Assembly (NCBI GenBank): GCA_030431455.1
Contig: JAUIJE010000006.1
Coordinates: 124,001 to 188,000, forward strand
Direction of reading: 5' to 3'
Source: a bacterium
GTDB lineage: Bacteria; Myxococcota; UBA727; JAUIJE01
DNA: 64,000 bases
Below the pieces are notes generated by a model, which worked only from the letters and a program-made list of their open reading frames with translations, ran no database searches and was not told the DNA's origin. Below are positions 39,834 through 63,609 of this stretch, in pieces (within the stretch, counting starts at the first letter, position 1; each line of letters begins with the position of its first letter). The position numbers and the translations under genes are program-made.

Positions 39834-39907
39834 AATGTGTCCAGTGACACAGGTTTTTGTCTCCTGATGAGACAGGTGGGGTGTTGTGCGGCTGTCTCGC
39901 CCGGTGA

Positions 39908-39924
39908 GAACGTACGTTCGAACG
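39908..39924. promoter_or_regulatory. GAAC-N4-GTTC dyad (LexA-box-like)
   Basis: GAACGTACGTTC is a perfect 12-base palindrome and overlaps a second one, CGTTCGAACG. The GAAC-N4-GTTC form equals the SOS box of Gram-positive and actinobacterial LexA; deltaproteobacterial LexA sites are generally different. It is about 85-100 bases upstream of the gene at 40007. Confidence 0.35.
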
Positions 39925-40006
39925 ATGTTGGGCTCGTCACGCGCCCGGTGCCGCGTGTATTTTGGCGCTCCCTCCGCCGCCCACAATGCAACTGGAGGGA
40001 AGAGAG

Positions 40007-41161: not shown

Positions 41162-41174
41162 TAGGACGTCCTAC
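41161..41174. promoter_or_regulatory. 14-base perfect palindrome GTAGGAC/GTCCTAC
   Basis: The palindrome begins at the last base of the preceding stop codon and lies 39 bases before the lipoprotein ATG at 41213. The same heptamer pair, spaced out, is found upstream of the lipoprotein gene at 63778. A TATAGT box near 41198 would put a promoter just downstream, making this an operator candidate. Confidence 0.4.
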
Positions 41175-41212
41175 GGGGTTCGCTTTTGGCCGGCACGCTA
41201 TAGTGATCGGCC

Positions 41213-42745: not shown

Positions 42746-42749
42746 GCGG

Positions 42750-46261: not shown

Positions 46262-48643
46262 ATGTCCCTTCGCGGTTGGTTCTCTGGCCTGTGTGGCCTG
46301 GTGGTCGCCGGGGGTGCCCTGACCGGCTGCCCTGGCCCGGATGGAGACTGTGTCTCCGCCGAGCGCCAATTTCAGGATGAAGTGTTCGAACCCATCCTCA
46401 AAAACCGCTGCATCACCTGTCACAACGACAGCGGTCCCGCGGCTTCGACCCGCCTGATCATCGACGAGAACGACATGGACCGGACCCGGCGCGGGGTCCT
46501 CCAGGTCGCGCTCATCACCCTCGACGGCGCCCCGCTTTTGACCCAAAAGCCGAGCGGGGCGGTGTCGCACGGCGGCGGCACCGTGCACCCGCCGGGCACC
46601 CCCGAGATCGCCGCCCTGGCCGCGTTTGCGGAAAAGCTCCGCAACCCCGACAGCTGCGACCCGGTTCCGTTCGCCGAGATCGCCTGCCGCACCCCCGAGA
46701 CCTTGCCCGCCCGGGTGCAGGTCCTGACCCGCGATGAGATGGACACCACCCTCTCGGTGGTGTTCGGCATCGATGACACGCCGGCCCAGCGCCTGCTGCC
46801 CGCCGAGCCGGTGGTCAACGGCTACAACAACAGCGCGGACGTGGTGCGCATGCAGCCGCTCCGGGTGGAGCAAGTCCACGCCCTCGCGGCCGACATCGCG
46901 CCCGAGATCGCGCTCGACGTGAGACAACGTGACTGCTTCAGCCAGGGCGGTGACGAACGCGAGTGCACCCGCGCGTGGCTCGAGGAGATCTTGCCCACCG
47001 CCTACCGGCTGGTGCCGTCGAGCGAAGACATCGATCCCCTGCTCGCGTTGTACGACGGTGAGATCGACCGCGCGGGCACGCCCCTGGAGGCGCTCACCGT
47101 CGCGGTGCGCGGGCTGCTCGTCTCCCCCTACTTCCTGTATCGCCGGGAGCTGGGGGCGTCGGGCCGCCTCGGCGCGTTCGAGACCGCAGAGAACCTCGCC
47201 TACGTGGTCACCGCCGGGCCGCCCGACGAGGCGTTGCTGGCCGCGGCGGTCGACGGGTCGATCATGGACGGCGATGTGCGCCGGGAGCACGCCCTGCGGT
47301 TGTTCGGCACCGAGCTCGGCCGCCGGCAGTTCGAGCGATTCATCTACCAATGGCTCGACGTGCGGAAGATCGCCCAAACCGAGAAGAGCTCGGTCGAGTA
47401 CCCCAAGTTTGGGTCGGCCACGCGCACCGCCATGGATCAAAGCCTGCGTCTGTACGTGCGCCACATCCTCGACAATGAAGGCACATTGCAGGCGCTGCTG
47501 TCGTCGCCCGCGACCTTCTGGAACAGCCACCTCGCCGACGTGCTCGGCGCCGAGAGCGGCGGGGGCGGGGGCGGCGGCGGGGCGGTCACCATCCGCCTCG
47601 AGGAGGAGGACATGGCCGAGGAGCCGAACGACCTCGGCTATGCCACCGGCGGCAACGCCGGCGGCTCCTGGATCGTGTGGGCCAACGGCGGGGTGCAAGC
47701 GCCCTTCGTCGTCGACGACGGGGGCAGCTACCAGGTTCGCGTCGACGTGGCCGCGGACTGGGCGTTTGATGTGGGCGCGGACTTTGACGTGCTGGTCGAT
47801 GACGCCCTGCTCGGCTCCGACCACACCGACGAGTACCAGGCCTACGAGACCTTCACCTACAATGCGACATTGGACGCGGGCAGCCACATGGTCACGGTGC
47901 GTTTCACCAACGACGTATACGACGAGGACACCGGCGCCGATCGCAACCTGTACGTCGACTTCGTCGAGATCACCGGCCCCGACGGGGCCAGCCCCGGCGA
48001 CCCCGGCGACCCCGGCGAGAGCTTTGGGCCGGAGCTGACCCTCACCGAGCAGGCCGGCCGGCCCGGCATTCTCACCCGGGCCGCGGTGTTGGCCGCCCAC
48101 AGCACCCCCGACGGCAGCTCGCCGATTCGGCGCGGGGTGCTCATCCGCGAGCGCGTGTTGTGCCAGGGCTTGCCGCCGCCGAGCAGCAACGTGGAGATGA
48201 TTCTGCCCGACTTCGACGAGGAGGTCGTCACCACCCGCGACCGCACCGAGGCGCACCTCAACGCCCCGAGCTGCGCCTCCTGCCACGCGCTGATCGACGG
48301 GCTCGGCTACGCCTTCGAAGGGTTCGACGGGGTGGGCGCGATCCGGACCGAACAGGGCGGGGCCACCATCGACCCCTCGGGCTCCATCCTGTCCACCCTG
48401 AGCACGGACGGCGATTTCGAAGACGTGCATGGGTTCATCGGCCTGCTCAAAGACAGCGACGAGGTGGAGCGGTGCTTCGCCAAGAACTACCGCATGTACA
48501 GCCTCGGGGCCGCCGACGACTTCAACCAAAGCTGTGTCGATGGCGCGGTGCTCGACGCGTTCGCCTCCTCGGGCGGGCGCTTTGAAGACCTTCTCGGGGC
48601 GCTGGTCGCGTCCCCGCGTTTTGTGGCGAGGAGCAACCCATGA
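46262..48643 (+). CDS. DUF1592/DUF1588/DUF1585 cytochrome-like lipoprotein with inserted carbohydrate-binding-like domain
   Basis: 793 residues. Signal and lipobox LTGC; a CITCH heme-c-type motif near residue 50; then the block order of planctomycete/myxobacterial cytochrome proteins: DUF1587-like (VLTRDEMDTTLSVVFG near 155), DUF1595/1592 (RLVPSSEDIDPLLALYDGE near 250; RQFERFIYQWLDVRKIA near 355), DUF1588 (RRGVLIRERVLCQGLPPP near 623) and DUF1585 near the C-terminus, with a second CASCH motif near 672. Between about 435 and 580 sits a beta-sandwich (IRLEEEDMAEEPNDLGYATG, ADRNLYVDFVEITGPDG) like CBM6/36-type binding modules. Exported and probably heme-bound. It overlaps the DUF1552 gene by 4 bases. 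Confidence 0.82.
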   Translation: MSLRGWFSGLCGLVVAGGALTGCPGPDGDCVSAERQFQDEVFEPILKNRCITCHNDSGPAASTRLIIDENDMDRTRRGVLQVALITLDGAPLLTQKPSGAVSHGGGTVHPPGTPEIAALAAFAEKLRNPDSCDPVPFAEIACRTPETLPARVQVLTRDEMDTTLSVVFGIDDTPAQRLLPAEPVVNGYNNSADVVRMQPLRVEQVHALAADIAPEIALDVRQRDCFSQGGDERECTRAWLEEILPTAYRLVPSSEDIDPLLALYDGEIDRAGTPLEALTVAVRGLLVSPYFLYRRELGASGRLGAFETAENLAYVVTAGPPDEALLAAAVDGSIMDGDVRREHALRLFGTELGRRQFERFIYQWLDVRKIAQTEKSSVEYPKFGSATRTAMDQSLRLYVRHILDNEGTLQALLSSPATFWNSHLADVLGAESGGGGGGGGAVTIRLEEEDMAEEPNDLGYATGGNAGGSWIVWANGGVQAPFVVDDGGSYQVRVDVAADWAFDVGADFDVLVDDALLGSDHTDEYQAYETFTYNATLDAGSHMVTVRFTNDVYDEDTGADRNLYVDFVEITGPDGASPGDPGDPGESFGPELTLTEQAGRPGILTRAAVLAAHSTPDGSSPIRRGVLIRERVLCQGLPPPSSNVEMILPDFDEEVVTTRDRTEAHLNAPSCASCHALIDGLGYAFEGFDGVGAIRTEQGGATIDPSGSILSTLSTDGDFEDVHGFIGLLKDSDEVERCFAKNYRMYSLGAADDFNQSCVDGAVLDAFASSGGRFEDLLGALVASPRFVARSNP

Positions 48644-50097
48644 GCTTCATCCGCACGTCCCGTCGACGGTTTTTCCAGAACGCGGCCATCCTCGCCGCGG
48701 GCGGATCGATTTCGTCCTTGTTGTTGTCCTCCCGGGCCCGGGCCCAAGAGGCGTTCGCCCAACGGGCGCTGTTCATGTTTTCGCCCCACGGGGCGGCCTA
48801 CGAGTATTGGCAACCGCGGGGATCGGGCGCGGACTGGGACATCAGCTACGAACGCTGCACCCTCGCGCCCCTCGCGCCCCTCAAAGACAAAATCTGCGTG
48901 CTCGACGGGCTCGACATGAAGGTCTTGTACGAGGGGGGCGAGGACGACGGTCTCATCTACTCCGGGCACGAAGGGGGCATGAGCGCCTTTTTGACCGGGT
49001 CCAAGCCGGTCTATCTCGGGCCGGGCACGTACGTGGCGTCGGGGCGCAGCATCGACCAGGAGATCGCCGACCATTTGATCAGCCGCGACATCATCCGGCC
49101 TCACCGCTCGCTGGAGCTCGCCCTCGGGGAGCGGTCGGGCACGGTGACCAACGACACCATCAACTACGGGTACGGCGACGGTGAAGAAAGCCGCATCCAG
49201 GGGGTGCACGACCCGAGCGTGGCGTTCACCCGGCTGTTCGGTGACGGTGACGTCGAGAACCCCGAACAGCTCCTGCGCATCGTCGCCCGGAAACAATCGA
49301 TTCTGGATCACGTGGTGGACCAGATCGGCCGGCTCTCGCCGACCTTGACCTCGTATGAACGGGAGAAGCTCGACCAGCACCTCGAGGGCATTCGCCAAAT
49401 CGAGCAGCGCCTCGAGGGGCTCGCGGGCGGCACCTGCGGGGCCAACATCGCGGTGGAGGGGCTGAGCCTCGACCCGTTGTCGGTGAACAACATCCCGGCG
49501 GTGGCCGAGCTGCACAGTGACATTCTGGCCCAGGCGTTTGCCTGCGACCTGGTGCGGGTGGCCACGCTGCAGATCGGGAGCGGGGGGGCGGACCGGCCCA
49601 TGCCCTGGCTGGGGATCGAACAGAACCCGCACCAAGACCTCGCCCACCAGATTTACGGCGGCAACCGACAGCTCAACACCGACCCCAATGTGCTGGACCC
49701 GTTTTTGGCCATGCAGACCTGGTATTGCGAGGTCGTGGCCTCGGTGTTGACCAAGCTCGACGCGGTGACCGAGGAGAACGGCCGCACCATCCTCGACAAC
49801 AGCCTGGTGGTGTGGGGCAACGAGCTCGGCGACGCCACCGTGCACGGCAACGTCAACATCCCGATGATCGTGGCCGGGGGGGCCGGGGTCTACGAGATGG
49901 GCAAACACCTGGTGTTTTCCCAGAGCCCCAACGACAGCTGCGCCTACTACCAAGGCGAGTGCGAGGGGGATTGGGACAATCAGTACCAGTACCTCAACGC
50001 CCACAATCACGTGTGGGTCAGCGTGGCCCAGGCCTTCGGCATGAACATCGAAACGTTTGGAGACGACCGGTACGTGGGGCCGCTTCCCGGGCTATAA
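48640..50097 (+). CDS. DUF1552 protein, Tat-exported
   Basis: 485 residues. TSRRRFFQNAAILAAGGSIS is a twin-arginine signal (SRRRFF) with cleavage near ARAQ. The body follows DUF1552 members: RALFMFSPHGAAYEYW near 43, DGLDMKVLYEGG near 89, YSGHEGGMSAFLTG, DHLISRDIIRPHRSLEL and NSLVVWGNELGDATVHGNVN near 388. This family is nearly always paired with DUF1592-type cytochromes, as here. The fold resembles alkaline-phosphatase or sulfatase-like exported enzymes, but no activity is known. It is followed by the PKS after 9 bases. Confidence 0.87.
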   Translation: MSFIRTSRRRFFQNAAILAAGGSISSLLLSSRARAQEAFAQRALFMFSPHGAAYEYWQPRGSGADWDISYERCTLAPLAPLKDKICVLDGLDMKVLYEGGEDDGLIYSGHEGGMSAFLTGSKPVYLGPGTYVASGRSIDQEIADHLISRDIIRPHRSLELALGERSGTVTNDTINYGYGDGEESRIQGVHDPSVAFTRLFGDGDVENPEQLLRIVARKQSILDHVVDQIGRLSPTLTSYEREKLDQHLEGIRQIEQRLEGLAGGTCGANIAVEGLSLDPLSVNNIPAVAELHSDILAQAFACDLVRVATLQIGSGGADRPMPWLGIEQNPHQDLAHQIYGGNRQLNTDPNVLDPFLAMQTWYCEVVASVLTKLDAVTEENGRTILDNSLVVWGNELGDATVHGNVNIPMIVAGGAGVYEMGKHLVFSQSPNDSCAYYQGECEGDWDNQYQYLNAHNHVWVSVAQAFGMNIETFGDDRYVGPLPGL

Positions 50098-50106: not shown

Positions 50107-53100
50107 ATGGGGTCGGGGGCAGACATCGACGAGAACGCCATTGCGATCGTGGGGCGCGCCTGCCGCGTGCCCGGCGCGTCATCGGTGGCGGCCTATTGGA
50201 ACAACCTGGCCCGGGGGGTGGAGTCGATCCGCCGCCTGTCCGACGACGAGCTGCGCGCCCGGGGGGTGTCGAAGAAGGACCTGGCCGCGCCGAGCTACGT
50301 CAAGGCGGCCGCGGTGTTCGACGACCTCGAGATGTTCGACGGTCGCTTCTTCGGCTTTTCGCCCAAAGAGAGCGCCATCCTCGACCCGCAGCACCGCCAC
50401 TTCCTCGAGGTGTGTTTCGAGGCCTTGGAGGACGCCGGCCACATGCCCGAAGGGTTCGACGGGGCCATCGGGGTGTTCGGCGGGTCGGGGCACAACGCGT
50501 ACATGCCGTATCATTTGTTCACCAACCCCGCGCTAATGCGCTCGACGGGGTTGTTCTTGGTGCGGCACACCGGCAACGACAAAGATTTCCTCACCACCCG
50601 GGTCTCGTACTGTCTCGACCTCCAGGGCCCCTCGGTGAACATCCAGACCGCGTGCTCGACGAGCCTGGTGGCGGTGCACTGGGCCGCGCAGAGCTTGCTC
50701 GCGGGGGAAAGCGACCTGGCCTTGGCCGGCGGGGTGACGCTGGAGTTGCCGCACGGGCGCGGGTACCACTTTGCCGAGGGCGAGATCCTCAGCCCCGACG
50801 GACACTGTCGGGCGTTCGATGCGAAATCGGCGGGAACGGTGTTCGGCTCCGGGGCCGGGGTGGTGGTGTTGCGTCGTCTCGAAGACGCGCTCGAAGACGG
50901 TGACACCATCCACGCGGTGGTCTTGAGCAGCGCGATCAACAACGACGGCGCGGGCAAGGTCGGGTATCTCGCCCCATCGGTGGACGGGCAGGCCGCGGCC
51001 ATCGCCGAGGCCATCACCCTCGCGGACCTGTCCGCCCGCGACATCTCTTACGTCGAATGCCACGGGACCGGCACCGCGGTCGGCGACCCCATCGAGGTCA
51101 CCGCGTTGAGCCAAGCGTTCCGCGGTTTCACCGAGGACAAGCAATTCTGTCACATTGGGTCGGTCAAGACCAACATCGGCCACCTCGACACCGCCGCCGG
51201 GGTCGCGAGCCTGATCAAGGTCGTGGAGATGATGCGCCACCAAGCCCTGGTCGCGACCCTCCACTACGAAAGCCCCAACCCCAACATCGACTTCGAACGC
51301 TCGCCGTTTCTGGTGTCCGCCACCCATCAGCCCTGGACCAGCCCCGGCCCGCGGCGCGCCGGGGTCAGCTCGCTCGGGGTGGGCGGCACCAATGCTCATG
51401 TCATCCTCGAGGAGGCCCCGGCCCCGGCCGCGCCGGCCCCCGCCCCCCGGGGCCAACATCCCCTGGTGCTCAGCGCCCGCAGCGAACCCAGCGCCCAGGC
51501 CTTGTGCCACGCCCTCGCCGACGCCCTCGACACCGGCGCCGTCGACCTCGCCGACGCCGGCTATACCCTCCAGACCGGACGGCGGTCGTTCGCCCACCAG
51601 GCCGTGGTCGTCGCGGGCGATGCCCCCACCGCCGCGGCCGCGTTGCGGGCGCGGGCGGGGCGGCGCGTCGCGGCGCAGCCCACGGTCAAAGGCCGGGTGG
51701 CGTTTATGTTCCCCGGCGGCGGCGCCCAGTACCCCAACATGGCGCGCGCGCTCTACGACCAGGAGCCGGTGTTCGCGCGGGCGGTCGAAGAGGGCATCGC
51801 GTTGGTCAAAGCCCAAGAGGGCTTTGACCTGTTCCCGTTGATGTTCCCCGACGAGGGAGACGAGGAAGCGGCCGCGCAGGGGTTGCTGCAAGCCACCTAC
51901 GCGTTGCCCGCGCTGCTGTGCACCGAGCTTTCGTACGCTGCGCTCTGGCGCTCGTGGGGGCTCGAGCCGGAGAAGCTCATCGGCCACTCCCTCGGCGAGT
52001 ACGCCTGCGCCCAGCTCGCGGGGGTGTTGCGCCTCGAGGACGCGTTGTCGGTGGTGGCGCTCCGCGGCCGGCTGTTCGACAAGCTGCCCGCGGGGGCGAT
52101 GTGGAGCGTGGCCTTGTCCGAGGCCGAGGTGTTGGCCCGGTTGTTGCCCGGGCTGGATCTCGCCGCGGTCAACGCCCCCGGGTTGTGCTTGGTGTCGGGG
52201 CCCGCGGACCAGGTCGACGCGTTCGGGGCCGCGCTCTCCGAAGCCGACATCGACGCGCGCAAGCTCCCCCTCGACGTGGCCGCGCACTCGCGCATGCTCG
52301 AGCCGGTGCTCGAGGAGTTCGGCGCCGCGCTCTCCACCATTCGGTTCAGCCCCCCCACCGGCCTGCGCTGGGTGTCCAACCTCACCGGTCGCGACATCAC
52401 CGATGAAGAGGCCACCGACCCCGCCTACTGGGTGCGCCACCTGCGCTCGACGGTGCGCTTCTGCGACGGGGTGCAGGCGCTGTGCGAGCAGGGCATCGAC
52501 ACCCTGGTCGAGGTCGGCCCCGGCCACGCCTTGAGCCAGCTCAGCCGCCTGTCGCTGGACGGCGGCGGGGTGCGCATCATCTCGTCGGGGGCCCATCGCA
52601 AGGACGAGCTCGACGCCCACGCCGCGATGCTGTCCGCCTACGGCGAAGTGACCCGGGCGGTGTCCCTCGACCCGGCCGCGTTTTGGGGGCCCGGCCGGCG
52701 CCGGGTGTCCCTGCCCACGACCCCCTGGGAACACCAACGACACTGGGTCGAGCCCGGCCGGGGCTTTTTCCTGTTCGAGGACGAAGAGGAAGGCCTGCGG
52801 CGACAAGCGGACCCGGGGCAATGGTTCTACACTTCTGTATATGATGAAGTAGAGCCCACGGCGCCCCGCGATCCCCAGGGCGAACGTTGGCTGTGGTTCG
52901 CCCCCGACCACGTGGCCGGCGCGGACATCGAGCGGGCCCTGCGCGCGCGGGGGGTGCACGTGGTGCGGGTCACCCGGGGCGACGCGTTCGCCGCTTCGGG
53001 CGACGCGGCCACGGTGCGGCCGGGCGAGGCCGCCGACCACGACGCGTTGCTGGCTTGGGCCGAGCCGGTGACCCAGGTGGTGTGGGGGTGGTCGCTCGAC

Positions 53101-56100
53101 GACGACGGGCCCGCGCCCGAGCGGGACGTGTTCTTGCCCTTGCTCGCGTTCGGCCAAGCGTTGAGCTTGTCCGCTCTGGACGACGACCTCGAGGTGGTGG
53201 CGTTGACCCGCGGCGACCTCCGGGGGGATGCCGGGCCCCGGCCGGCGGCCCAGCTCGTCGAGGGGCCGCTGTGTGCGATGGACAAAGAAATCGTCGGGGT
53301 GCGGGCGCGCCGGGTGGACCTCGGTCCCCAGGTCGCGGCCGCCGATGTCGCGGCTGAACTGTTGCGGGCGGGTCCCGACGTGGTCGCCCTCGACGCGCGG
53401 GGCGCGCGTTGGTCGCGCGACGAACGCGGGCTCGCCTTGGCCCCCGCGCTCGACGAGGCGACCCGGTTCTGGGACGGGGTGGTCTTGATCACCGGGGGCC
53501 TGGGCGGCTTGGGCTTGGCCTTCGCCGCGTCGTTGATGGCGCGCGGCGCTTCGAAGGTGGCGCTGTTGAGCCGCAGCGGGCTGCCCGACCCAGAGGAGTG
53601 GGACGCCTACTGCGCGATGCACGACGCGCGCGACCTGACCCGGGCCCGGATCGAAGCCGTGCGCCGGTTGCAGGCGCAGGGCGAGGTGCGGGTGGTGACC
53701 GCCGACGTCGCCGACGCCGCCGCCCTCGAGGACGCGGTGGCGGGCATCGAGGAGGACTTCGGCCCGGTGGTCACGGTGCTGCACGCCGCGGGGGTGCTCG
53801 ACGACGGGCTGTTGTCGATGAAGGACCACGACGCGGCCCTCGCGGTGCTCGCCCCCAAAGTGGGCGGCGGCCGCGCGCTCCACCGCGTGTTTGGCCACGG
53901 CGAGCGGGCCGCGCGGCTGCGTTCGATGGTGCTGTTCTCGTCGACGAGCGCGGCGTTGGGGCCGCCGGGCCAAGCCGACTACGTGGCCGCCAACGCCTAC
54001 CTCAACGGGCTGGCCGCGCGGTGGGCCCACGAGCAGCCCCAGGCCCGGGTCCTCGCGGTGCAGTGGGGCATCTTCGCGGGCACGGGCATGGCCGCCCGGG
54101 CGTACCGGGGGGCGGGCCCGAGCGTCAGCGGCGACCGGGTCGACCACCCGCTGCTGTCCCGGTGCGTGGAAAAAAGCGAACACCGGGTGGTCTACGGCGC
54201 GGTGTTCGACGTGCGCGACCTCTGGGTCCTCGACGAGCATCGGGTGCGCGACCAAGGCGCGGTGCTGCCGGGCACCGGGTATCTGGAGATGGCGCGGGCC
54301 GCGTTCGCCCACGCCACCGGACACCAAGGCCCGGTGGAGCTGCGGGATGTGTTCTTCACCGGTCCGTTGTGGGTCGACGACGAGAGCCCGCGTGAAGTGC
54401 GGGTGGTGCTCAGCGGGGCCGAGGACGGCGGGTTCGGCTTTGTGATCGAGAGCCGGGCCGGGCCCCAGGACGCGGACTACACCGAACATTGTCGAGGCCA
54501 GGTCCTGGCCGGGGGCCCCGAGCGCCCCGGACCGGTGCCGCCCGACGAGCCGGTGGTGCGGCAACAGGATGGCCAAGGCAACCCTGTGACATTGCCGCAG
54601 GAGGATCGGCTGCTGTTCGGGCCGCGCTGGAAAGTCGTCACCAAGGTGGTGGAGCAGGCCCAGCGCGCCGAGGTGTGGTTGCGCAGCGCGGCCGACGCCC
54701 CCGAGCGCCAGCAGTTCGTGCTGCACCCGGCGTTGTTGGACATGGCCAGCGGCGGGGGGTTTGGGTTGCTGCCGGGCCAACGCGGCGACCGGTTGCCGAT
54801 TCCGCTGTCCTATCGCCGGCTGTGGGTGCGCGGCCCGGCGGGGGCCACGCTGCAAAGCCGGGTCTTCCGTACCTCGGGCAGCGACGATCTCGGGACGTTG
54901 CGGGTCGAGGTCAGCGACGAGGACGGCCTGTGGGTGAAGGCCGAAGGCTACGCGGTCCGCACCGTGCCCGCGCAGACGGTGCGGCGGGCGATGGCCAAAG
55001 AGCGCGCGCCCACGTTGCTCGATGAGTGGATCGAAGAGGGCCTGACCGCCGAGGAAGGCGCGGACGCCTTGGTGCAACTGTGGAAAGCGAAGACCGACCC
55101 GGTGGTGTTGGTCTCGCCCCTGTCGGTGCTGGGCATGCGCGAACGGGTCCTGGCCCACAGCGCCAAGGCCCCGCGTAAGGCGGCCCCGGCGGCGTCGGCG
55201 GGGGGCACGCCCCGGGAGGATGGCCCCCGCGACGACGTGGAGCGCACGTTGGCCGGGCTGTGGCACGACCTGTTGGGCGCGGCCGACGTGGGGCTGGACG
55301 ACGACTTCTTCGACCTCGGGGGGCAGTCATTGGTCGCGGTCCGGCTGTTCGCGCGGATCAAAAAAGCCTACGGCGTCGATCTGGAGATCTCGGTCCTGTT
55401 CGATGCGCCCACCATCCGGACCTGTGCCGAGCGCATCCGACAAGAGCTCGGCATGGCGTTTGTGCCCGACGGCCCCGCCGCGGCCGACGCCCCCCGGGTC
55501 GCGCCCGCCGCGCCGAAAGCACAGTACCAATGCCTGGTGGCGATCCAGCGGGGCGCCGAGGGGCGCACGCCGTTTTTCTGTGTGCACGGGGCGGGGGGCA
55601 ACGTGCTCAACTTCCGCGACCTGGCGCGGCACCTCGGCGACGATGTGCCGTTTTACGGCCTGCAGGCGGTGGGGATCGACGGGCGGGCCACGCCCCAGAC
55701 CCGCATCGAGGACATGGCCGCCCGCTATCTCGAAGACGTCCTGTCACATTGGCCGGAGGGCCCCTACTTGTTCGGCGGCTACTCGGGGGGCGGGGTGGTG
55801 GCCTTTGAGATGGCGCAGCAGCTCAAGGCCCAAGGGCGCGACGTGGACCACGTGGTGTTCCTCGACACCTTCATGCCCCAGATCGAATGGAAACCGCTCA
55901 CCCTCAAGCAACGCCTCGAGGGGGTCCGCCGAGAAGGGGCCGGCTACTTCCAGCGCCGGGCCAAAGCCCGGGTCAAATGGGAGCTCGACCGGCTGCGCAC
56001 CGAGGTCCGGCTCCGGCTCCTGCTGCGGGAGGACGTGGCGTTGCCGTTCGACCTCCGAGAAGAACACCTCACCCGGTCGTTCCTCACCGCCGCCGCGCAG

Positions 56101-56328
56101 TATCACCCCCAACCCTACGACGGCGCAGTGACATTGTTCAGGGCCCAAGAGGTGGCCGATGTCTTCGCCCACGCCGGGCGCACCCTGGGGTGGGGCCCGT
56201 ACGTCCGCGACATCACCATCCACGAGGTGCCCGGCGACCACGACAGCCTCGTGCGGGAGCCCAACGTCCAGGTCCTCACCAGCCGCCTGCGGGCCCTGCT
56301 CGAGCAGGCGGGGCCGGGGCGTGGGTGA
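50107..56328 (+). CDS. type I polyketide synthase, one module with thioesterase (KS-AT-KR-DH-ACP-TE)
   Basis: 2073 residues. KS about 12-435 with Cys183 in TACSTS, His319 in HGTGT and His359 in NIGH. AT about 535-830 with Ser628 in GHSLGEY. After a structural region of 250 residues comes KR about 1125-1300 (LITGGLGGLGLAF; SSTSAALGPPGQADYVAANA). DH about 1345-1610 has His1378 in DEHRVRDQGAVLPG and Asp1545 in HPALLDMAS. ACP Ser1741 is in DLGGQSL. TE about 1810-2065 has Ser1893 in GGYSGGG and His2045 in PGDHDS. All active residues are present. KR before DH is not the usual order; it recalls PfaA-type synthases. The product should be a short enoyl or longer iterative chain, released or cyclised by TE. 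Confidence 0.93.
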   Translation: MGSGADIDENAIAIVGRACRVPGASSVAAYWNNLARGVESIRRLSDDELRARGVSKKDLAAPSYVKAAAVFDDLEMFDGRFFGFSPKESAILDPQHRHFLEVCFEALEDAGHMPEGFDGAIGVFGGSGHNAYMPYHLFTNPALMRSTGLFLVRHTGNDKDFLTTRVSYCLDLQGPSVNIQTACSTSLVAVHWAAQSLLAGESDLALAGGVTLELPHGRGYHFAEGEILSPDGHCRAFDAKSAGTVFGSGAGVVVLRRLEDALEDGDTIHAVVLSSAINNDGAGKVGYLAPSVDGQAAAIAEAITLADLSARDISYVECHGTGTAVGDPIEVTALSQAFRGFTEDKQFCHIGSVKTNIGHLDTAAGVASLIKVVEMMRHQALVATLHYESPNPNIDFERSPFLVSATHQPWTSPGPRRAGVSSLGVGGTNAHVILEEAPAPAAPAPAPRGQHPLVLSARSEPSAQALCHALADALDTGAVDLADAGYTLQTGRRSFAHQAVVVAGDAPTAAAALRARAGRRVAAQPTVKGRVAFMFPGGGAQYPNMARALYDQEPVFARAVEEGIALVKAQEGFDLFPLMFPDEGDEEAAAQGLLQATYALPALLCTELSYAALWRSWGLEPEKLIGHSLGEYACAQLAGVLRLEDALSVVALRGRLFDKLPAGAMWSVALSEAEVLARLLPGLDLAAVNAPGLCLVSGPADQVDAFGAALSEADIDARKLPLDVAAHSRMLEPVLEEFGAALSTIRFSPPTGLRWVSNLTGRDITDEEATDPAYWVRHLRSTVRFCDGVQALCEQGIDTLVEVGPGHALSQLSRLSLDGGGVRIISSGAHRKDELDAHAAMLSAYGEVTRAVSLDPAAFWGPGRRRVSLPTTPWEHQRHWVEPGRGFFLFEDEEEGLRRQADPGQWFYTSVYDEVEPTAPRDPQGERWLWFAPDHVAGADIERALRARGVHVVRVTRGDAFAASGDAATVRPGEAADHDALLAWAEPVTQVVWGWSLDDDGPAPERDVFLPLLAFGQALSLSALDDDLEVVALTRGDLRGDAGPRPAAQLVEGPLCAMDKEIVGVRARRVDLGPQVAAADVAAELLRAGPDVVALDARGARWSRDERGLALAPALDEATRFWDGVVLITGGLGGLGLAFAASLMARGASKVALLSRSGLPDPEEWDAYCAMHDARDLTRARIEAVRRLQAQGEVRVVTADVADAAALEDAVAGIEEDFGPVVTVLHAAGVLDDGLLSMKDHDAALAVLAPKVGGGRALHRVFGHGERAARLRSMVLFSSTSAALGPPGQADYVAANAYLNGLAARWAHEQPQARVLAVQWGIFAGTGMAARAYRGAGPSVSGDRVDHPLLSRCVEKSEHRVVYGAVFDVRDLWVLDEHRVRDQGAVLPGTGYLEMARAAFAHATGHQGPVELRDVFFTGPLWVDDESPREVRVVLSGAEDGGFGFVIESRAGPQDADYTEHCRGQVLAGGPERPGPVPPDEPVVRQQDGQGNPVTLPQEDRLLFGPRWKVVTKVVEQAQRAEVWLRSAADAPERQQFVLHPALLDMASGGGFGLLPGQRGDRLPIPLSYRRLWVRGPAGATLQSRVFRTSGSDDLGTLRVEVSDEDGLWVKAEGYAVRTVPAQTVRRAMAKERAPTLLDEWIEEGLTAEEGADALVQLWKAKTDPVVLVSPLSVLGMRERVLAHSAKAPRKAAPAASAGGTPREDGPRDDVERTLAGLWHDLLGAADVGLDDDFFDLGGQSLVAVRLFARIKKAYGVDLEISVLFDAPTIRTCAERIRQELGMAFVPDGPAAADAPRVAPAAPKAQYQCLVAIQRGAEGRTPFFCVHGAGGNVLNFRDLARHLGDDVPFYGLQAVGIDGRATPQTRIEDMAARYLEDVLSHWPEGPYLFGGYSGGGVVAFEMAQQLKAQGRDVDHVVFLDTFMPQIEWKPLTLKQRLEGVRREGAGYFQRRAKARVKWELDRLRTEVRLRLLLREDVALPFDLREEHLTRSFLTAAAQYHPQPYDGAVTLFRAQEVADVFAHAGRTLGWGPYVRDITIHEVPGDHDSLVREPNVQVLTSRLRALLEQAGPGRG

Positions 56329-57148
56329 ACGCCGCCGGCGCGTGTCCCGTGCGGTTCTGGTCGGCGCGTCGGTGCTCGCGCTCGCGGGGGGGCTGACCCT
56401 GATCGGAGGGCCCGCGCGCCGCTATCCCGACCTGTCCCGGGCCGGCCCCCCGTCGGGGGCGCCGCCGCCCGGGTTTGTCGCCACCACCGTCGAGGGCGCG
56501 GGCGGCCATCGCCTGCGCGCGTTCGTGCGCGCGGGACCGGAGATGGTGTACTGGATGGACGGCAACGACCCGGCCCCGCTCGCCGCGGGGGCCGCGCACG
56601 CCGCCGCGGTGCTGCCCGACGACGTGGGCATCACCGTGATCGCCCCGCGCGGGTTCGAGCAGGACGGCGGCCACCTCGCGCCCGGGGTGCTGCGCGCCGA
56701 CGCCGAGGCGATCCGCGCGCGGGTGCTGGCCGACGCGGACGGGCCGGTGGTGTTCGGGGGGTTTTCGCTCGGTACGCTGTTCACGCTGTTCGCGGCCCAT
56801 CGGGCGCCCGACGTGTGCGCGGTGCTGCTGGCCCCGCTCACGGACATCGGCGTTCGTCCCGCCGCCGGCCCCGGCGTGCTCACGCGGCTGTGGAGCCGGG
56901 TGTATGCCCCGCGCTACGACGCCCGGGGGGTGCGGTTGATGGGGCCGGCGTTGGCCGTGCGCGGCGCCCTCGACGAGGACAGCACCGCCGATGACCTGGC
57001 CGCGCTGAGCGCCCAGGGCCCGGACGTCGAGGTGATGCAGGTCCCAAAAGTGGGACACGCCACGCTCCCCGACGCCCCCGCGGTCCAAAAAGCGGTACAA
57101 ACCTTTGTCGCCAAGTGCCGCGAACGTCACACCAAGGGGGGCTCATGA
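56321..57148 (+). CDS. alpha/beta hydrolase, membrane-anchored
   Basis: 275 residues from GTG 56321, which overlaps the PKS stop by 8 bases. A basic start and hydrophobic helix (AVLVGASVLALAGGLTLIGG) anchor or export it. The hydrolase core has GGFSLGT with nucleophile Ser near residue 149, ALAVRGALDED with the acid near 212 and VGHATLP with His near 244. It may act as type-II thioesterase, esterase or acyl-releasing enzyme on the PKS/NRPS product, but on the outer face if the helix is a true anchor. The stop overlaps the NRPS-like start (ATGA). Confidence 0.7.
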   Translation: MGERRRRVSRAVLVGASVLALAGGLTLIGGPARRYPDLSRAGPPSGAPPPGFVATTVEGAGGHRLRAFVRAGPEMVYWMDGNDPAPLAAGAAHAAAVLPDDVGITVIAPRGFEQDGGHLAPGVLRADAEAIRARVLADADGPVVFGGFSLGTLFTLFAAHRAPDVCAVLLAPLTDIGVRPAAGPGVLTRLWSRVYAPRYDARGVRLMGPALAVRGALDEDSTADDLAALSAQGPDVEVMQVPKVGHATLPDAPAVQKAVQTFVAKCRERHTKGGS

Positions 57149-60100
57149 GCGGTCGGCAGTTTCGTTGTGTCATCGTCGGGGACGGGTCGCTCACCGTGCA
57201 CGCGGCCCAGTCCCTGCTCGCCGGCGGTCACACCCTGGTGGCGGCGGTGACCGACGAGCCCGCGGTCGAGGGCGTGTGTCGACGCCACGACGTGCCCGTG
57301 ATGCGGTTTTCGCGCCACCTCGCCGAGCAGCTCGCGGCCGAGCCCTTCGACATCCTGTTCTCCGTGGTCAACCTGCGCCTGCTGCCCGAGGACGTGCTGG
57401 CCTTGCCCCGGGAGATGGCGATCAACTTCCACGACGGGCCGCTCCCGGATTGGGCCGGGGTCAACGTGACGACGTGGGCGCTGTTGCGGGACCGGCCCGC
57501 CCACGGGGTGACCTGGCACCTGATGCAAGGCGAAGCCGACACCGGGGACATCCTCGTGCAGGCCCCGGTGGACATCGCCGACGACGAGACCTCGTTTTCG
57601 CTCAACGCCAAGTGCTACGCGGCGGGCATGGCCACCTTCGACGACCTGCTCGCCCAGCTCGAAGCCGGGACCTGGCGCAAGACGGCCCAGGACGCGTCCG
57701 CTCGGCACTATTTCGACTTCTACGACCGGCCCGCGCACGGGGGCGCCCTTGACTTCGCGGCCTCCGCGGCCGACATCGCGCGCACGGTCCGCGCCCTCGA
57801 CTTCGGGGCGGGCTACGAAAATCCGCTGGCCTCGGCCAAAGTGGTCACCGCCCATGGCGCTGTGCTCGTGGGCCAGGCGGCGCCCGCCCCCGGGCAAGGC
57901 GCGCCCGGCACGCTGCTCGAGGTGCAGCGGGACGGCATCGTGGTCGCGGCCGGGGACGGTGCGGTGGCGTTGACCAAGCTTCGCAATGTGTATGGGCGCA
58001 CCCTCGACGGTGCCGGCGTACTGGCCGCCCTTCAGGTGGCGGTGGGGGCCAACCTGACCGCCCCCGACGCCGCCGGCCTGGAAGCGACGGTGCGCGCGGT
58101 GGCGCGGAGCGAAGGCTTCTTTCGGCGTCGGCTGCTCACCGCCACCGACGACAACCTCGTGCTCAGCGGAACCCAGGCCGCGGCCCCCGGGGCCCGGCGG
58201 GGGCAGGCCCCGGTCGCGTTGCCCGCCGTCGACACCCCCGACGCGGCCGCGGGCGCGTTGTGCGCCGCGCTGGGGCGGCTCACCGGGCGGGCGCGCTACT
58301 TGGTGGCGGTGTCCACCGACGACCTCGCGGCCGCGGCCGACGGGCAGGGCGGGTTGTTGTCGTCGTGGGTCCCGCATCGGCCCCAGGGCGGCCTCGACCA
58401 ACCCCTCGCCTCGTGGACAAAAGCGGCCGAAGCCCAGCTGCCCGCGCTGCGCGCCCGGGGGACGTTTTTGCGTGACCTCGTGGCCCGCACCCCCGGTCTC
58501 GCCGCCCACCGCGATGGCTTGCGGCTGGGGGTCCAGCTCCACCTCGGGGCCGGGCCCGCGCCCGACACCGGGGCCCCGGTGGTGTTCTGCATCGATCCCG
58601 CGGGGGCGGTCACCGTCGAGGTGGCCGAGCGCACCGGGGGCGTGACCGCCTCCGAGCTCGCGGCCCGGGTGAGCACCTTCGCGGCCGCGGCCGCGCGCGG
58701 GGGCGCGGTGTCCTCCATCGACATTGTGACGGCGGAGGAGCGCGCGTTCCTGTTGGGCGAGGTCAACGACACCGCGCGGGACGTGCCCCGCTCCGACACG
58801 CTGGACGCGGCGTTCGCGCGCCAGGTGCAAAAGACCCCCGACGCCCCCGCGCTCACCGTGGGCGGTGAGACCCTCAGCTATGCCCAGTTGGCCGCGCGGT
58901 CCCGGGGGGTGGCCCAGGCGTTGATGGCCCGGGACGTCGGTCCCGGGCACCGGGTGGGCATCTACGTCGAGCGATCCGCGGACATGATGGTGGCGGTCCT
59001 GGGCACCTTGATGGCGGGGGCCGCGTACACGCCCCTCGACCCCGCGTACCCGGCGCAGCGGGTGGCGTACATGATCGAGGACGCCAAGCTCAGCGCGATC
59101 CTGGTACATCCCCGGTCCGCGGGCCGGTTGTCGGGGCACGAGGACGTCCTGCTCGACGTCGCCGGCTGCGCCCCGCAGGACGACGCAGTGGCGGCCCGGG
59201 CCACGGGCCGCGACCTCGCCTATGTCATTTACACCAGCGGGTCGACGGGCAAGCCCAAGGGGGTCATGGTCGAGCACCACAACGTGGTCAACTTCTTCGC
59301 GGCCATGGACGAGGTCATCGCCCCCTCCACCCCGCGTCGCTGGTTGGCGGTCACGTCGCTCAACTTCGACATCAGCGTGCTGGAGTTGCTCTACACCCTG
59401 ACCCGCGGGTTTGAGGTGGTGCTGTACCAGGACGCCGAGCGCGCGGGGACGGCGATGGGGGAGTCCGCGGCCCGGGGGCCGGCGATCGATTTTTCGTTGT
59501 TCTACTTCTCCGCCGACGAGGGCGAAGCGGGGGACAAATACCGCCTGCTCATCGAGGGCGCGAAGTTCGGCGATGCCCACGGCTTCTGCGCGGTGTGGAC
59601 CCCGGAGCGTCACTTTCACGCTTTTGGAGGTCTCTACCCGAACCCTTCGGTGACCGGCGCGGCCTTGGCCATGGTCACCCAGAACGTTCAAATCCGGTCC
59701 GGCTCCTGCGTCAGCCCCTTGCACTCCCCGATTCGCATCGCCGAGGAGTGGAGCGTGGTCGACAACCTCTCGGGGGGGCGGGTGGGGCTGTCCTTCGCCG
59801 CGGGTTGGCAGCCCAACGACTTCGCGATCCGGCCCCACGCGTTCAAAGACCGCAAAGACCAGATGTTGCGCGACATCGACACCGTGAAGCGGCTGTGGCG
59901 CGGGGAGGCGGTGGAGTTCGCGGACGGCACGGGCAAGAACATCGAGGTGCGGACCCTGCCGCGCCCGATCCAAGACGAGCTGCCGGTGTGGGTCACCGCC
60001 GCGGGCAATCCAGAGACATTCCGGGCGGCGGGTGAGCGCGGGGCCAACCTGTTGACCCACCTCCTGGGGCAGACCCTCGAGGAGCTTGACGAGAAAATTC

Positions 60101-61755
60101 GCGTCTACCGCGAAGCCTATGCCGCCGCCGGGCACCCCGGCCGCGGCGTCGTGTCGTTGATGCTGCACACCTACGTGGGCGAGACCGACGACGAGTCCCG
60201 CGAGACCGCCCGCGAGCCGATGAAGCAGTACCTCAAGAGCGCGGTGGGCCTGGTGCAGAAAGCGGCCTGGTCGTTCCCCACGTTCAAGAAGAGCACCACC
60301 CTCGACGATGGCACCTTCTCCACCTCGCACCTGTCCGACGAGGAGATGGACGCGTTGTTGTCGTTCTCGTTCGAGCGCTATTTCGACACCTCGGGGCTGT
60401 TCGGCTCGGTGGAGACCGCCACCGCGTTCGCCCACCAGGTGGCCCAGATCGACGCCGACGAGATCGCGTGCTTGATCGATTTCGGGGTCCCGACGGACAA
60501 GGTCCTCGCGCAACTGCCGCGGTTGGCGGAGGTCTTGCGCCGGCAGAAGGCGAGCGCGGCCAGCGCCCCCACGGGGAGCGAAGCCGGCCTTGGGGTGACG
60601 CACGCCTCCGCCGCGGAGCTGATGCAACGACATGGGGTGACCCACGTGCAGTGCACGCCGAGCATGGCCCGGATGTGGATGGCCGACGACGCCACCCGCC
60701 AGGCGCTCGGGCAGGTGGGGCAAATCCTGATCGGCGGTGAGGCCTTCCCCGCGCCGCTCGCCCGGGATCTGCTCAGCGTCAACGACAACGTGCACAACAT
60801 GTACGGGCCCACCGAGACCACGATTTGGTCGTCGACCCACCAGGTCGAGCCGCGGGTGCCGAGCGTGCCCATCGGCCGCCCCATCGCCAACACCGAGATG
60901 TACATCCTCGACGACAACCGCCGGCTGCTCCCTCCCGGGACCCCGGGGGAGCTGTACATCGGCGGGCGCGGGGTGGTGCGCGGCTATTTTGAGCGGCCCG
61001 AGCTCACCGACGAGCGGTTCGTGCCCAATCCCTTCGGCGAAGGGAGGCTGTACCGCACCGGTGACGTGGCCCAAGTGCGCGCGGACGGGGTGTTTGAGTT
61101 CCTCGGCCGGGCCGACGACCAGGTCAAGATCCGCGGCCACCGCATCGAACTCGGCGAGATCGAGACCGCGCTCAGTGGGCACCCGAGCGTCTCGGCGGCG
61201 GTGGTCATCGCCCGTGACGACGACGGCACCGGGCCTCGGTTGGTGGGGTACGTCATCGGCAAGGGGGCCGCCGATCCCGATCCTGTGGCATTGCGCGACC
61301 ACCTGCGCCAGAGCCTGCCCGAACACATGGTGCCCGCCGACTTTGTGACCCTGGACGCCTTCCCCCACACCCCCAACAAGAAAATCGACAAGAAGGCGCT
61401 GCCTGCGCCCAAGCGGGCGGGGCCGCGGCGCGCCCGGACCGCGCCCCCCGAGGGCGAGACCGAGGAGGTCTTGGCCCGGATTTGGTCATCGGTGCTCGGT
61501 CTGGACCAGGTGGGGGTCGACGAGAACTTCTTCGACCTCGGGGGGCATTCGCTGCAAACCGTCGAGGTCCTGGTGCAGGTCAAAAAGGAGCTGTCGCCGG
61601 AGGTCAGTCTGGTCGACTTGTTCCGGTACCCGACCATCCGGGCGCTGGCCCAAGCCCTGGCCAAGTCCGGTGACACCCCCTCGGCCGCGACCGCGGGACA
61701 AAAACGCGCCGAGGCCCGCATGCGGCGCCGCAACCAACGTCGACGAGGGGCCTGA
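57145..61755 (+). CDS. NRPS-like protein: formyltransferase-like domain, A domain with inserted luciferase-like monooxygenase, carrier protein
   Basis: 1536 residues. About 1-230: formyltransferase-like (INFHDGPLPDWAGVN near 94, EADTGDILVQ near 131). About 300-545: remnant resembling the end of a condensation domain, without HHxxxDG. A domain starts near 552 (LTVGGETLSYAQLAARS; A3 YVIYTSGSTGKPKGVMVEH near 695). At about 763-1140 it is interrupted by an FMN-dependent luciferase-like monooxygenase (IDFSLFYFSADEGEAGDKYR, WTPERHFHAFGGLYPNP, RIAEEWSVVDNLSGGRVGLS). The A domain resumes near 1153 (NMYGPTETT; LYRTGDV; VKIRGHRIELGEIE). Carrier near 1440-1510 has Ser in DLGGHSL. This is the MupA/Atu3671-type plan. 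Predicted to activate, oxidise and perhaps formylate an amino or acyl unit. Confidence 0.9.
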   Translation: MSGRQFRCVIVGDGSLTVHAAQSLLAGGHTLVAAVTDEPAVEGVCRRHDVPVMRFSRHLAEQLAAEPFDILFSVVNLRLLPEDVLALPREMAINFHDGPLPDWAGVNVTTWALLRDRPAHGVTWHLMQGEADTGDILVQAPVDIADDETSFSLNAKCYAAGMATFDDLLAQLEAGTWRKTAQDASARHYFDFYDRPAHGGALDFAASAADIARTVRALDFGAGYENPLASAKVVTAHGAVLVGQAAPAPGQGAPGTLLEVQRDGIVVAAGDGAVALTKLRNVYGRTLDGAGVLAALQVAVGANLTAPDAAGLEATVRAVARSEGFFRRRLLTATDDNLVLSGTQAAAPGARRGQAPVALPAVDTPDAAAGALCAALGRLTGRARYLVAVSTDDLAAAADGQGGLLSSWVPHRPQGGLDQPLASWTKAAEAQLPALRARGTFLRDLVARTPGLAAHRDGLRLGVQLHLGAGPAPDTGAPVVFCIDPAGAVTVEVAERTGGVTASELAARVSTFAAAAARGGAVSSIDIVTAEERAFLLGEVNDTARDVPRSDTLDAAFARQVQKTPDAPALTVGGETLSYAQLAARSRGVAQALMARDVGPGHRVGIYVERSADMMVAVLGTLMAGAAYTPLDPAYPAQRVAYMIEDAKLSAILVHPRSAGRLSGHEDVLLDVAGCAPQDDAVAARATGRDLAYVIYTSGSTGKPKGVMVEHHNVVNFFAAMDEVIAPSTPRRWLAVTSLNFDISVLELLYTLTRGFEVVLYQDAERAGTAMGESAARGPAIDFSLFYFSADEGEAGDKYRLLIEGAKFGDAHGFCAVWTPERHFHAFGGLYPNPSVTGAALAMVTQNVQIRSGSCVSPLHSPIRIAEEWSVVDNLSGGRVGLSFAAGWQPNDFAIRPHAFKDRKDQMLRDIDTVKRLWRGEAVEFADGTGKNIEVRTLPRPIQDELPVWVTAAGNPETFRAAGERGANLLTHLLGQTLEELDEKIRVYREAYAAAGHPGRGVVSLMLHTYVGETDDESRETAREPMKQYLKSAVGLVQKAAWSFPTFKKSTTLDDGTFSTSHLSDEEMDALLSFSFERYFDTSGLFGSVETATAFAHQVAQIDADEIACLIDFGVPTDKVLAQLPRLAEVLRRQKASAASAPTGSEAGLGVTHASAAELMQRHGVTHVQCTPSMARMWMADDATRQALGQVGQILIGGEAFPAPLARDLLSVNDNVHNMYGPTETTIWSSTHQVEPRVPSVPIGRPIANTEMYILDDNRRLLPPGTPGELYIGGRGVVRGYFERPELTDERFVPNPFGEGRLYRTGDVAQVRADGVFEFLGRADDQVKIRGHRIELGEIETALSGHPSVSAAVVIARDDDGTGPRLVGYVIGKGAADPDPVALRDHLRQSLPEHMVPADFVTLDAFPHTPNKKIDKKALPAPKRAGPRRARTAPPEGETEEVLARIWSSVLGLDQVGVDENFFDLGGHSLQTVEVLVQVKKELSPEVSLVDLFRYPTIRALAQALAKSGDTPSAATAGQKRAEARMRRRNQRRRGA

Positions 61756-61756
61756 G

Positions 61757-62506
61757 ATGCGCATCCTCAACAGCCGGTTCGACGAGGTCACCACCGCCGA
61801 GGTCGCGGACCAGGTCATCGACATGATCCGCGCGGGGGAGCGGGGCTGGCTGTGCACGGTCAACGTCGCGATCCTGATGATGATGCAGGACGATGCCCAA
61901 CTGCAGCGGTTCGTGGACCAGGCGAGGTTCGTGGTGGCCGACGGCCAGCCGCTCATCTGGGCGTCGAAGCTCGCCCCCCGGGCGTTGCCCGAGCGGGTCA
62001 CCGGGGTGGACCTGGTCGAGGAGCTGTGCGCGCGCGCGGCCCGGGAAGAGCTCGGGGTCTACCTCCTCGGGGCCCAGCGCGACATCGTCGACCAGGTCGA
62101 GCGCAAGCTGTGCCAACGCTATCCAGGGTTGCACATCGCGGGGGTCGACGACGGCTACTTCACGTGGGACGAGGCCCAGGCCCGGGCCGAACACGTGCGC
62201 CAGAGTGGGGCCCACATCCTCATCGTGGCCATGGGTGTGCCCCGGCAAGAACGGTTCATCGAGGAATACTGGGAGCAGCTGGGCGTGCCCTTCGCCATCG
62301 GGGTGGGCGGCAGCTTCGACGTGGTGGCCGGCCTCCGCCAGCGCGCGCCCCGGGTGGTGCAAGCGGTGGGCATGGAGTGGGCGTTCCGGTTGGCCCAAGA
62401 GCCCCGGCGACTGTTCAAGCGCTATCTGATGACCAACTCCCGCTTCATCTGGCAGATGAGCAAAGACATTGCCACGGGCCGCAAGGGCCTTTCGGAGGAT
62501 TCATGA
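61757..62506 (+). CDS. WecG/TagA/CpsF-family glycosyltransferase
   Basis: 249 residues with the GT26 pattern: TVNVAILMMMQDD near 35, VADGQPLIWASKL near 61, VTGVDLVEELC near 81, VYLLGAQ, and VAMGVPRQERFIEEYW near 157, then IGVGGSFDVVAG. These enzymes move ManNAcA or ManNAc onto lipid-linked GlcNAc. ATG 61757 comes 1 base after the NRPS-like stop, so it is part of that transcript. The epimerase that makes UDP-ManNAc follows directly. Confidence 0.9.
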   Translation: MRILNSRFDEVTTAEVADQVIDMIRAGERGWLCTVNVAILMMMQDDAQLQRFVDQARFVVADGQPLIWASKLAPRALPERVTGVDLVEELCARAAREELGVYLLGAQRDIVDQVERKLCQRYPGLHIAGVDDGYFTWDEAQARAEHVRQSGAHILIVAMGVPRQERFIEEYWEQLGVPFAIGVGGSFDVVAGLRQRAPRVVQAVGMEWAFRLAQEPRRLFKRYLMTNSRFIWQMSKDIATGRKGLSEDS

Positions 62507-63609
62507 GCGCCCGGCGCAAACTCATGGTCGTGCTCGGCACCCGTCCCGAGGCGATCAAGCTCGCCCCGGTGATCCTCGGGGCCAAGGACCGTGCAGACAC
62601 ATTTGAGACGGTCGTCATCACCACCGGGCAGCACAAAGAGATGCTCGCCCAGATGCTCGACGAGTTCGGCATCACCCCGGACAAAGACCTCCAGATCATG
62701 AAGCCAGACCAGACCCTGGCCCACATCACCACCGCCGCCCTTGAGGGGCTGTCCGACGCGATCACCGCACACCAGCCCGATTGGGTCGTGGTCCAAGGCG
62801 ACACCACCACCACCTTCGCCGGCGCCCTCGCGGCGTTCTACCAGAAGGTCAAGGTCGCCCACGTCGAAGCGGGGCTGCGCACCTACGACAAGCACCAGCC
62901 CTACCCCGAGGAGATCAACCGAACCCTCACCGGCCATCTCGCCGACATTCACTTCCCCCCGACGACGATGAGCCGGGACAACCTCCTCCGCGAGAACATC
63001 CCCGCCGATCGCATCTTCGTCACCGGCAACACCGCCATCGACGCGTTGTTCTTGACCCTGAAAAAGATGGGCCGGACCCCCAACAAGGCCGGGCCGGTGC
63101 GCCCCCGGGAGCGGATCTTGCTCACCGCCCACCGCCGGGAGAACCAAGGTCCCAACCTGGAACAAATCTGTGACGCGGTGCTCACCCTCGTCGACCGCTA
63201 TCCATCTTTGCAGGTGACCTATCCCGTGCACCTGTCGCCCCGGGTTCGGGCCACGGTGATGCCCAAGCTCGGTGACCACCCGCGGATCACGCTCACCGAC
63301 CCCCTTGGCTATCCAGAGTTTGTCCAGGCGATGGACGACGCCGACATCATCCTCACCGATTCCGGGGGGGTGCAAGAGGAGGCCCCCTCCCTGGGCAAAC
63401 CCGTGCTCGTGTTGCGCGAAAGCACCGAGCGCCCCGAGGCCAGCGAGGCCGGCACCGCCCGCATCGTGGGCGCCGACCGGGATGTGATCGTGCGGGAGAC
63501 CGCCCGGCTGGTGGACGATGACCAGGCCTACGCGGCCATGGCCCGGGCCGACAATCCCTACGGGGACGGCACCGCCGCGGCCCAGATCCTCGACCGCCTC
63601 GCGGGCTGA
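62503..63609 (+). CDS. wecB: UDP-N-acetylglucosamine 2-epimerase (non-hydrolysing)
   Basis: 368 residues. Diagnostic parts: VVLGTRPEAIKLAPVI near 9, TGQHKEML near 40, VVQGDTTTTFAGALAAFY near 92, VEAGLRTYDKHQPYPEEINR near 116 (catalytic Asp and Glu), TAHRRENQG near 207, and ILTDSGGVQEEAPSLGKPVL near 285. It converts UDP-GlcNAc to UDP-ManNAc, the donor precursor for a WecG-type enzyme. GGAGGATTC and an ATGA overlap fix the start at 62503. No ManNAc dehydrogenase (WecC) is nearby, so ManNAc rather than ManNAcA may be used, or wecC is elsewhere. Confidence 0.93.
   Translation: MSARRKLMVVLGTRPEAIKLAPVILGAKDRADTFETVVITTGQHKEMLAQMLDEFGITPDKDLQIMKPDQTLAHITTAALEGLSDAITAHQPDWVVVQGDTTTTFAGALAAFYQKVKVAHVEAGLRTYDKHQPYPEEINRTLTGHLADIHFPPTTMSRDNLLRENIPADRIFVTGNTAIDALFLTLKKMGRTPNKAGPVRPRERILLTAHRRENQGPNLEQICDAVLTLVDRYPSLQVTYPVHLSPRVRATVMPKLGDHPRITLTDPLGYPEFVQAMDDADIILTDSGGVQEEAPSLGKPVLVLRESTERPEASEAGTARIVGADRDVIVRETARLVDDDQAYAAMARADNPYGDGTAAAQILDRLAG

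Follow-up and report, generated by a model that had tools for sequence, protein, structure and literature searches.

A polyketide synthase/peptide synthetase gene pair linked to surface-polysaccharide loci in Myxococcota and other phyla

Wzx/Wzy-type exopolysaccharide (EPS) loci with a WecG-type transferase include the eps locus of Myxococcus xanthus (EpsA) and the holdfast locus of Caulobacter (HfsJ), and we know of no polyketide synthase (PKS) or nonribosomal peptide synthetase (NRPS) in either. Among NRPSs, the LgrA initiation module of linear gramicidin carries an N-terminal formyltransferase (FT) fused to adenylation (A) and carrier (T) domains. In myxothiazol and melithiazol synthesis, a monooxygenase (MOX) placed inside the A domain hydroxylates the alpha carbon of glycine, which is then cleaved to an amide (PMC10204066, PMC11342130). 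The window analysed here, a stretch of 64,000 nucleotides from the 7.7 Mb genome of a member of the Myxococcota (bases 124001-188000 of contig JAUIJE010000006.1), contained five plus-strand genes in series, coding for a type I PKS, an alpha/beta-hydrolase, an NRPS-like protein of the form FT-(half C)-A(LLM)-T, a WecG-type glycosyltransferase and a WecB-type epimerase, where LLM is a luciferase-like monooxygenase and half C a partial condensation domain. We regard as evenly balanced the proposition that in this operon a widespread acyl assembly line of two enzymes, a horizontally spread module, is coupled to a Wzx/Wzy-type surface polysaccharide locus.

The gene string from PKS to wecB

The PKS (50107-56328, 2073 aa) had the domain order KS-AT-KR-DH-ACP-TE, as judged from Pfam domains and catalytic motifs, with KR unusually preceding DH. 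The motifs of all six domains were matched in the window protein, and most were also matched in 49 homologues; one complete reducing module plus a thioesterase is directly predicted. The hydrolase (56321-57148) gave no Pfam match. It adopts an alpha/beta-hydrolase fold with a single N-terminal hydrophobic helix (residues 2-28), a predicted membrane anchor, and is about 30% identical to the hydrolase sited between PKS and NRPS in Myxococcaceae, Ser149/Asp218/His246 being invariant between them.

Pfam and NCBIfam, with which the domain content was confirmed, placed Formyl_trans N and C domains, an AMP-binding domain split by TIGR04020 and a carrier domain in the NRPS-like protein (57145-61755). 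The nearest kin of the FT were Met-tRNA formyltransferase and ArnA-like enzymes. Its motifs INFHDGPLP, kept in most homologues, and GEADTGDIL were present, with the catalytic Asn-His-Asp ahead of A-T, and both FT and T were intact by motif. The roughly 250 aa between FT and A showed a partial condensation-domain fold (E 5e-8, TM 0.61 on query, rmsd ~6 Å) with no Pfam condensation match. The TIGR04020 insert (59491-60534, 500 bits) occupied residues 793-1140, between FDISVLEL and NMYGPTE, i.e., between A4 and A5, and the closest solved relative of this LLM was PuwE (6ket). The ten-residue code of the A domain was DILQIGMIWK, position 517 being Lys, and among 74 aligned members, drawn from many phyla, 73 showed DILQ[VILM]G[MLV][IV]W, L090 being the exception (position 517 not well aligned). 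DILQVGLIWK has been listed as a glycine code (PMC4169593), and DILQLGMIWK is common to four glycine domains with a MOX (PMC12283262). A MOX-type glycine code is thus directly predicted for the window protein. Since the code and the position of the LLM both match the myxothiazol/melithiazol case, a glycine-oxidising starter unit is a well-founded prediction for the NRPS-like protein.

The product of wecG (61757-62506), the only WecG gene of the genome, is a WecG/TagA/CpsF glycosyltransferase that scored above cut-off against PF03808 (207 bits) and TIGR00696 (172 bits) and below the NCBIfam equivalog cut-offs for WecG, EpsA and TarA. The wecB product (62503-63609), a non-hydrolysing UDP-GlcNAc 2-epimerase, reached 476 bits against the equivalog TIGR00236 (cut-off 210). 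By family, WecB is directly predicted to make N-acetylmannosamine (ManNAc) and WecG to transfer it, and ManNAc as the putative WecG donor agrees with the wecB neighbour. WecG/TagA/CpsF enzymes act on polyprenyl-diphosphate-linked sugars; by analogy, WecG would add its sugar to a sugar held on a lipid carrier, not to the PKS/NRPS product itself.

An earlier reading of the window, made from the sequence only, had described the five genes as overlapping or one base apart, and the junctions bear this out. The hydrolase may start at GTG 56321, giving an 8-bp overlap with the PKS; the best start of the NRPS-like gene, ATG 57145, overlaps the hydrolase by 4 bp (ATGA); wecG starts at ATG 61757 after a 1-base gap; and wecB starts at ATG 62503, in another 4-bp ATGA overlap. 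Such spacing suggests that the string from PKS to wecB is one transcript. Immediately upstream on the plus strand, a gene for a DUF1592/DUF1588/DUF1585/DUF1587 protein with CBM60 (46262-48643) overlaps by 4 bases a gene for a DUF1552 (HXXSHH) protein (48640-50097), and the PKS begins 9 bases after the latter, so that a transcript start at 46262 is possible, the former being possibly the first gene of the PKS operon and the latter possibly a member. A consensus promoter scan of the operon region returned no site, a result that says little for this organism.

Linkage to polysaccharide genes and spread of the pair

The adjacent EPS operon named in the sequence-only reading was recovered as a Wzx/Wzy-type locus on the minus strand, 5-20 kb upstream of the PKS (29636-44960). 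It comprised a GT2 glycosyltransferase (GT; 29636-30886), a protein of the Wzy polymerase/O-antigen ligase family (30883-32724, PF04932), a Wzx flippase (36541-38064), a polyprenyl-phosphate sugar-1-phosphate transferase (PHPT; 38148-39545, PF02397, 224 bits), which is the initiating enzyme of a Wzx/Wzy polysaccharide, a second GT2 (42750-43787) and two hexapeptide-repeat acyltransferases (43784-44347 and 44304-44960), both candidate acyl-transfer enzymes. PHPT, Wzx, Wzy and GTs occur together at 29636-39545, the first three of them 11-20 kb ahead of the PKS; wecG lies about 22 kb from the locus. Three PHPT genes were found in the genome, the strongest match being this one close to the operon.

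Distances from the FT-A(LLM)-T gene to every WecG and PHPT gene were computed in 47 carrier genomes. WecG lay within 20 kb in 14 of them (0.40 expected) and within 30 kb in 16 (0.60 expected). PHPT lay within 20 kb in at least 14 (1.12 expected) and within 30 kb in at least 18 (1.67 expected), counted among the matches listed and therefore slightly low, observed and expected alike. As a control, 33 ordinary NRPS loci from 43 carrier genomes were scored in the same way: WecG was near one, at either distance, PHPT near none within 20 kb and one within 30 kb, and either marker near two. On the background rate and on these ordinary loci of the same genomes, pure chance neighbourhood was rejected. 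Zero condensation domains were found in 24 of 43 carrier genomes; the pair is therefore no mark of rich secondary metabolism, and that explanation was rejected for most carriers.

The proposal that the PKS/NRPS product is tied to a glycan thus stands in part: the linkage to polysaccharide loci recurs far above chance, but wecG-wecB is no obligate partner. With WecG near the pair in only the 16 genomes given above, and a WecB match in the examined stretches of L036-L115 confined to L069, wecG-wecB was rejected as a conserved partner. The recurring feature is association with polysaccharide loci, not ManNAc transfer as such, and the wecG-wecB pairing of the window is a single instance of this wider pattern.

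WecG-linked lineages were Rhodobacteraceae, Hydrogenophaga, Novosphingobium, Microvirga, Planctomycetota and, within Myxococcota, L097 and L112. Neighbours that recurred beside the pair included GT4, GT2, PHPT, Wzx, Wzy, Wzz, BY-kinase-like, phosphopantetheinyl transferase (PPTase), hexapeptide and sugar-nucleotide genes. A GT2 gene sat directly between PKS and NRPS in many loci of Rhodobacteraceae and Hydrogenophaga, followed behind by PPTase, Wzz, BY-kinase-like, sugar-nucleotide and GT genes. In L112, FT-A(LLM)-T, PKS, PPTase and WecG were consecutive on one strand, and in L097 WecG and PHPT sat between PKS and NRPS. The cyanobacterial loci L041-L043 (about 4700-18400) were without a type I PKS and had PHPT and a hexapeptide transferase just ahead of FT-A(LLM)-T. 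Behind it were genes for a discrete ACP, a short-chain dehydrogenase/reductase, an AMP ligase and KAS III in L041, and for a pyridoxal-phosphate decarboxylase, an ATP-grasp protein, KAS III and a DegT aminotransferase in L043; the KAS III genes agree with a starter-unit role of the glycine module.

Of 195 genomes of the phylum, 65 contained the LLM domain, which in GTDB contigs was found at no fewer than 585 places; the best 80 of these were analysed as relatives. About 50 of the best 80 loci had PKS adjoining FT-A(LLM)-T, and their record titles placed them in at least eight phyla. The LLM tree mixed phyla strongly, with 27 phylum changes over 13 groups, which points to gene transfer, with the reservation that most records are metagenome bins. 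The window LLM grouped with those of Planctomycetota, Cyanobacteria, Rhodothermota, Ignavibacteriota and Myxococcaceae. At the thresholds used, neither LLM nor FT was found in any of the 15 other genomes of the window's own order, four of which carried WecG; in the two WecG-bearing stretches examined (L148 and L151), no other of the searched window EPS genes was detected. One record, L038 (BNCN01000003.1), titled Comamonas sp. KCTC 72670, gave a match with coordinates identical to those of G141, from the Myxococcaceae-like genus g64, and is probably mislabelled. A different NRPS cluster, at G228:C44:52761-69519, encoded a second LLM protein and several C domains, with a WecG gene within 1 kb.

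Farther off in the window, the carbamoyltransferase that the sequence-only reading had called adjacent is present at 2014-3768, but it lies 46 kb away. Together with distant acyltransferases, it had been considered for decoration of the product; these genes exist, 34-50 kb from the operon, and were excluded from the model. An AlgX-like SGNH protein, a rubrerythrin-like protein and the carbamoyltransferase are encoded consecutively at 140-3768, possibly a further sugar-modifying group, and a glycoside hydrolase family 44 protein (212 bits) is encoded at 9278-11701.

Possible role of the product and rival explanations

The following route would account for the gene content. T would carry the glycine, which would receive an N-formyl group and be oxidised by the LLM, and the resulting unit would serve as starter for the PKS, which would add one or more malonyl units, reduce and dehydrate, giving a short acyl chain. 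PHPT (38148-39545) would start a lipid-linked repeat unit, to which WecG would add ManNAc and which the GT2s would help to build; the thioesterase or a hexapeptide acyltransferase might then move the acyl onto an (amino)sugar of this unit. Wzx and Wzy would export and polymerise it, and the membrane-anchored hydrolase may act on the acyl beyond the inner membrane, by trimming or transferring it. Glycine choice, formylation, oxidation, a single reducing PKS module, and ManNAc supply and transfer are the predicted steps that sequence supports; the NRPS-to-PKS direction, the later fate of the oxidised glycine, the acyl structure and the attachment to sugar we infer. Most of the evidence for acylation of a glycan is gene context.

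The main rival holds that the pair makes a free small metabolite, a glycine-derived, formylated and oxidised acyl, that a shared surface or biofilm life style or an insertion hot spot brings it near EPS genes, and that wecG-wecB is merely co-transcribed; we judge this somewhat doubtful, though a serious possibility. Several observations speak for it, or weigh against glycan acylation. In Myxococcaceae, PKS-hydrolase-FT-A(LLM)-T keeps its order with no EPS marker within about 20 kb, and WecG sits elsewhere in those genomes where its place was readable. The sequence-only reading had named relatives with the pair, and without wecG-wecB, at unrelated loci as evidence against itself, and the Myxococcaceae, with neither WecG nor an EPS gene near the pair, are in part such a case. 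In other myxobacteria wecG-wecB forms an EPS module of its own without the PKS/NRPS (L149, 4537-6443; L150, 9459-11263), so that, taken with the Myxococcaceae loci, either half of the window operon can occur without the other. WecG and PHPT are absent near about half of the sampled loci, neither lying within 30 kb in 22 of the 47 genomes, and the LLM-bearing A domains known otherwise serve the synthesis of free metabolites (PMC10204066, PMC11342130). The EPS block of the window is on the strand opposite to the PKS/NRPS operon, and no dedicated enzyme joining acyl to sugar was identified. Many of the linked genomes are Rhodobacteraceae, and P values overstate independence; by the LLM tree, the WecG label switches at most 7 times and that for either marker 9 times, so that the relatives amount to several independent associations, not dozens. 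What a free metabolite explains poorly is that the linkage recurs in several lineages and yet is all but missing at the ordinary NRPS loci of the carriers, that a GT gene lies inside the PKS-NRPS operon in many loci, and that the cyanobacterial version sits in a locus of the sugar-acylation type.

The operon structure and the GTs between PKS and NRPS would also suit a glycolipid or glycosylated metabolite, in which WecG or a GT2 puts ManNAc or another sugar directly on the PKS/NRPS product, and pairings of PKS with glycolipids are known, e.g., the heterocyst glycolipids. This is nevertheless unlikely, given the polyprenyl-diphosphate-linked substrates of the WecG family and the nearby Wzx, Wzy and PHPT genes; moreover, a single-module PKS would give a short chain and no lipid, unless it acts iteratively. 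A glycine module that bears both an FT and a flavin monooxygenase could also yield a metal-binding, hydroxamate-like group such as N-formyl-N-hydroxyglycine, as a free or polymer-bound chelator, and the TIGR04020 family also occurs in siderophore pathways. We consider a chelator very improbable: in described pathways the target of LLMs within glycine A domains is the alpha carbon, which they hydroxylate (PMC10204066, PMC11342130), and the annotated window genes included no siderophore receptor or transport gene, although no systematic search was made.

Returning to glycan acylation, it is tentatively possible that surface polysaccharides of one class, distributed among at least eight phyla through gene transfer, bear on their repeat unit an acyl that a dedicated PKS/NRPS pair makes to order, its precursors being malonate and an N-formylated, oxidised glycine. 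The recurrence beside polysaccharide genes suggests that purpose-made acyl groups may serve bacteria in decorating their surface sugars, and if so, assembly-line chemistry would tailor biofilm, holdfast or capsule sugars from Cyanobacteria to Rhodobacteraceae. Small PKS/NRPS pairs of this type are easily classed as orphan clusters of the antibiotic kind; should polysaccharide acylation be the role of the pair, its product ought to be sought in the cell-surface polymer instead of in culture extracts.

Comparison with known systems

The individual parts of the window locus are of known kinds. No paper describing a PKS/NRPS pair in a Wzx/Wzy locus was found in the literature searched, which comprised open-licence papers only and is weak evidence of novelty. 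The M. xanthus eps and Caulobacter holdfast loci share PHPT, Wzx, Wzy, GT2 and WecG-family genes with the window locus, which differs from them in the PKS/NRPS line beside it. MtaG and MelG, the terminal modules of myxothiazol and melithiazol synthesis, resemble the NRPS-like protein in glycine code (DILQLGMIWK, against DILQIGMIWK in the window) and in the position of the LLM/MOX within the A domain, whereas the window module is stand-alone, has FT and half C at its head, lacks a TE and is paired with a separate one-module PKS. The FT-A-T of LgrA is similar in its N-terminal formyltransferase fused to A and T and in its related A domain; the window protein differs in its LLM insert, glycine code and absence of an elongation module in the same protein, and, with half C between FT and A, it departs from the LgrA-type arrangement, where A comes straight after FT and no C domain intervenes.

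Within Myxococcota, each half of the operon has a counterpart. L149 and L150 have adjacent wecG-wecB genes (42-48% identity), accompanied by GT genes and by Wzy or Wzx, whereas the PKS, hydrolase and FT-A(LLM)-T present in the window are missing there. The Myxococcaceae loci L038-L040 and L116-L125 carry PKS-hydrolase-FT-A(LLM)-T in the same order as the window, with an LLM 63-66% identical to that of the window, but differ from it in having neither adjacent EPS genes nor wecG-wecB.

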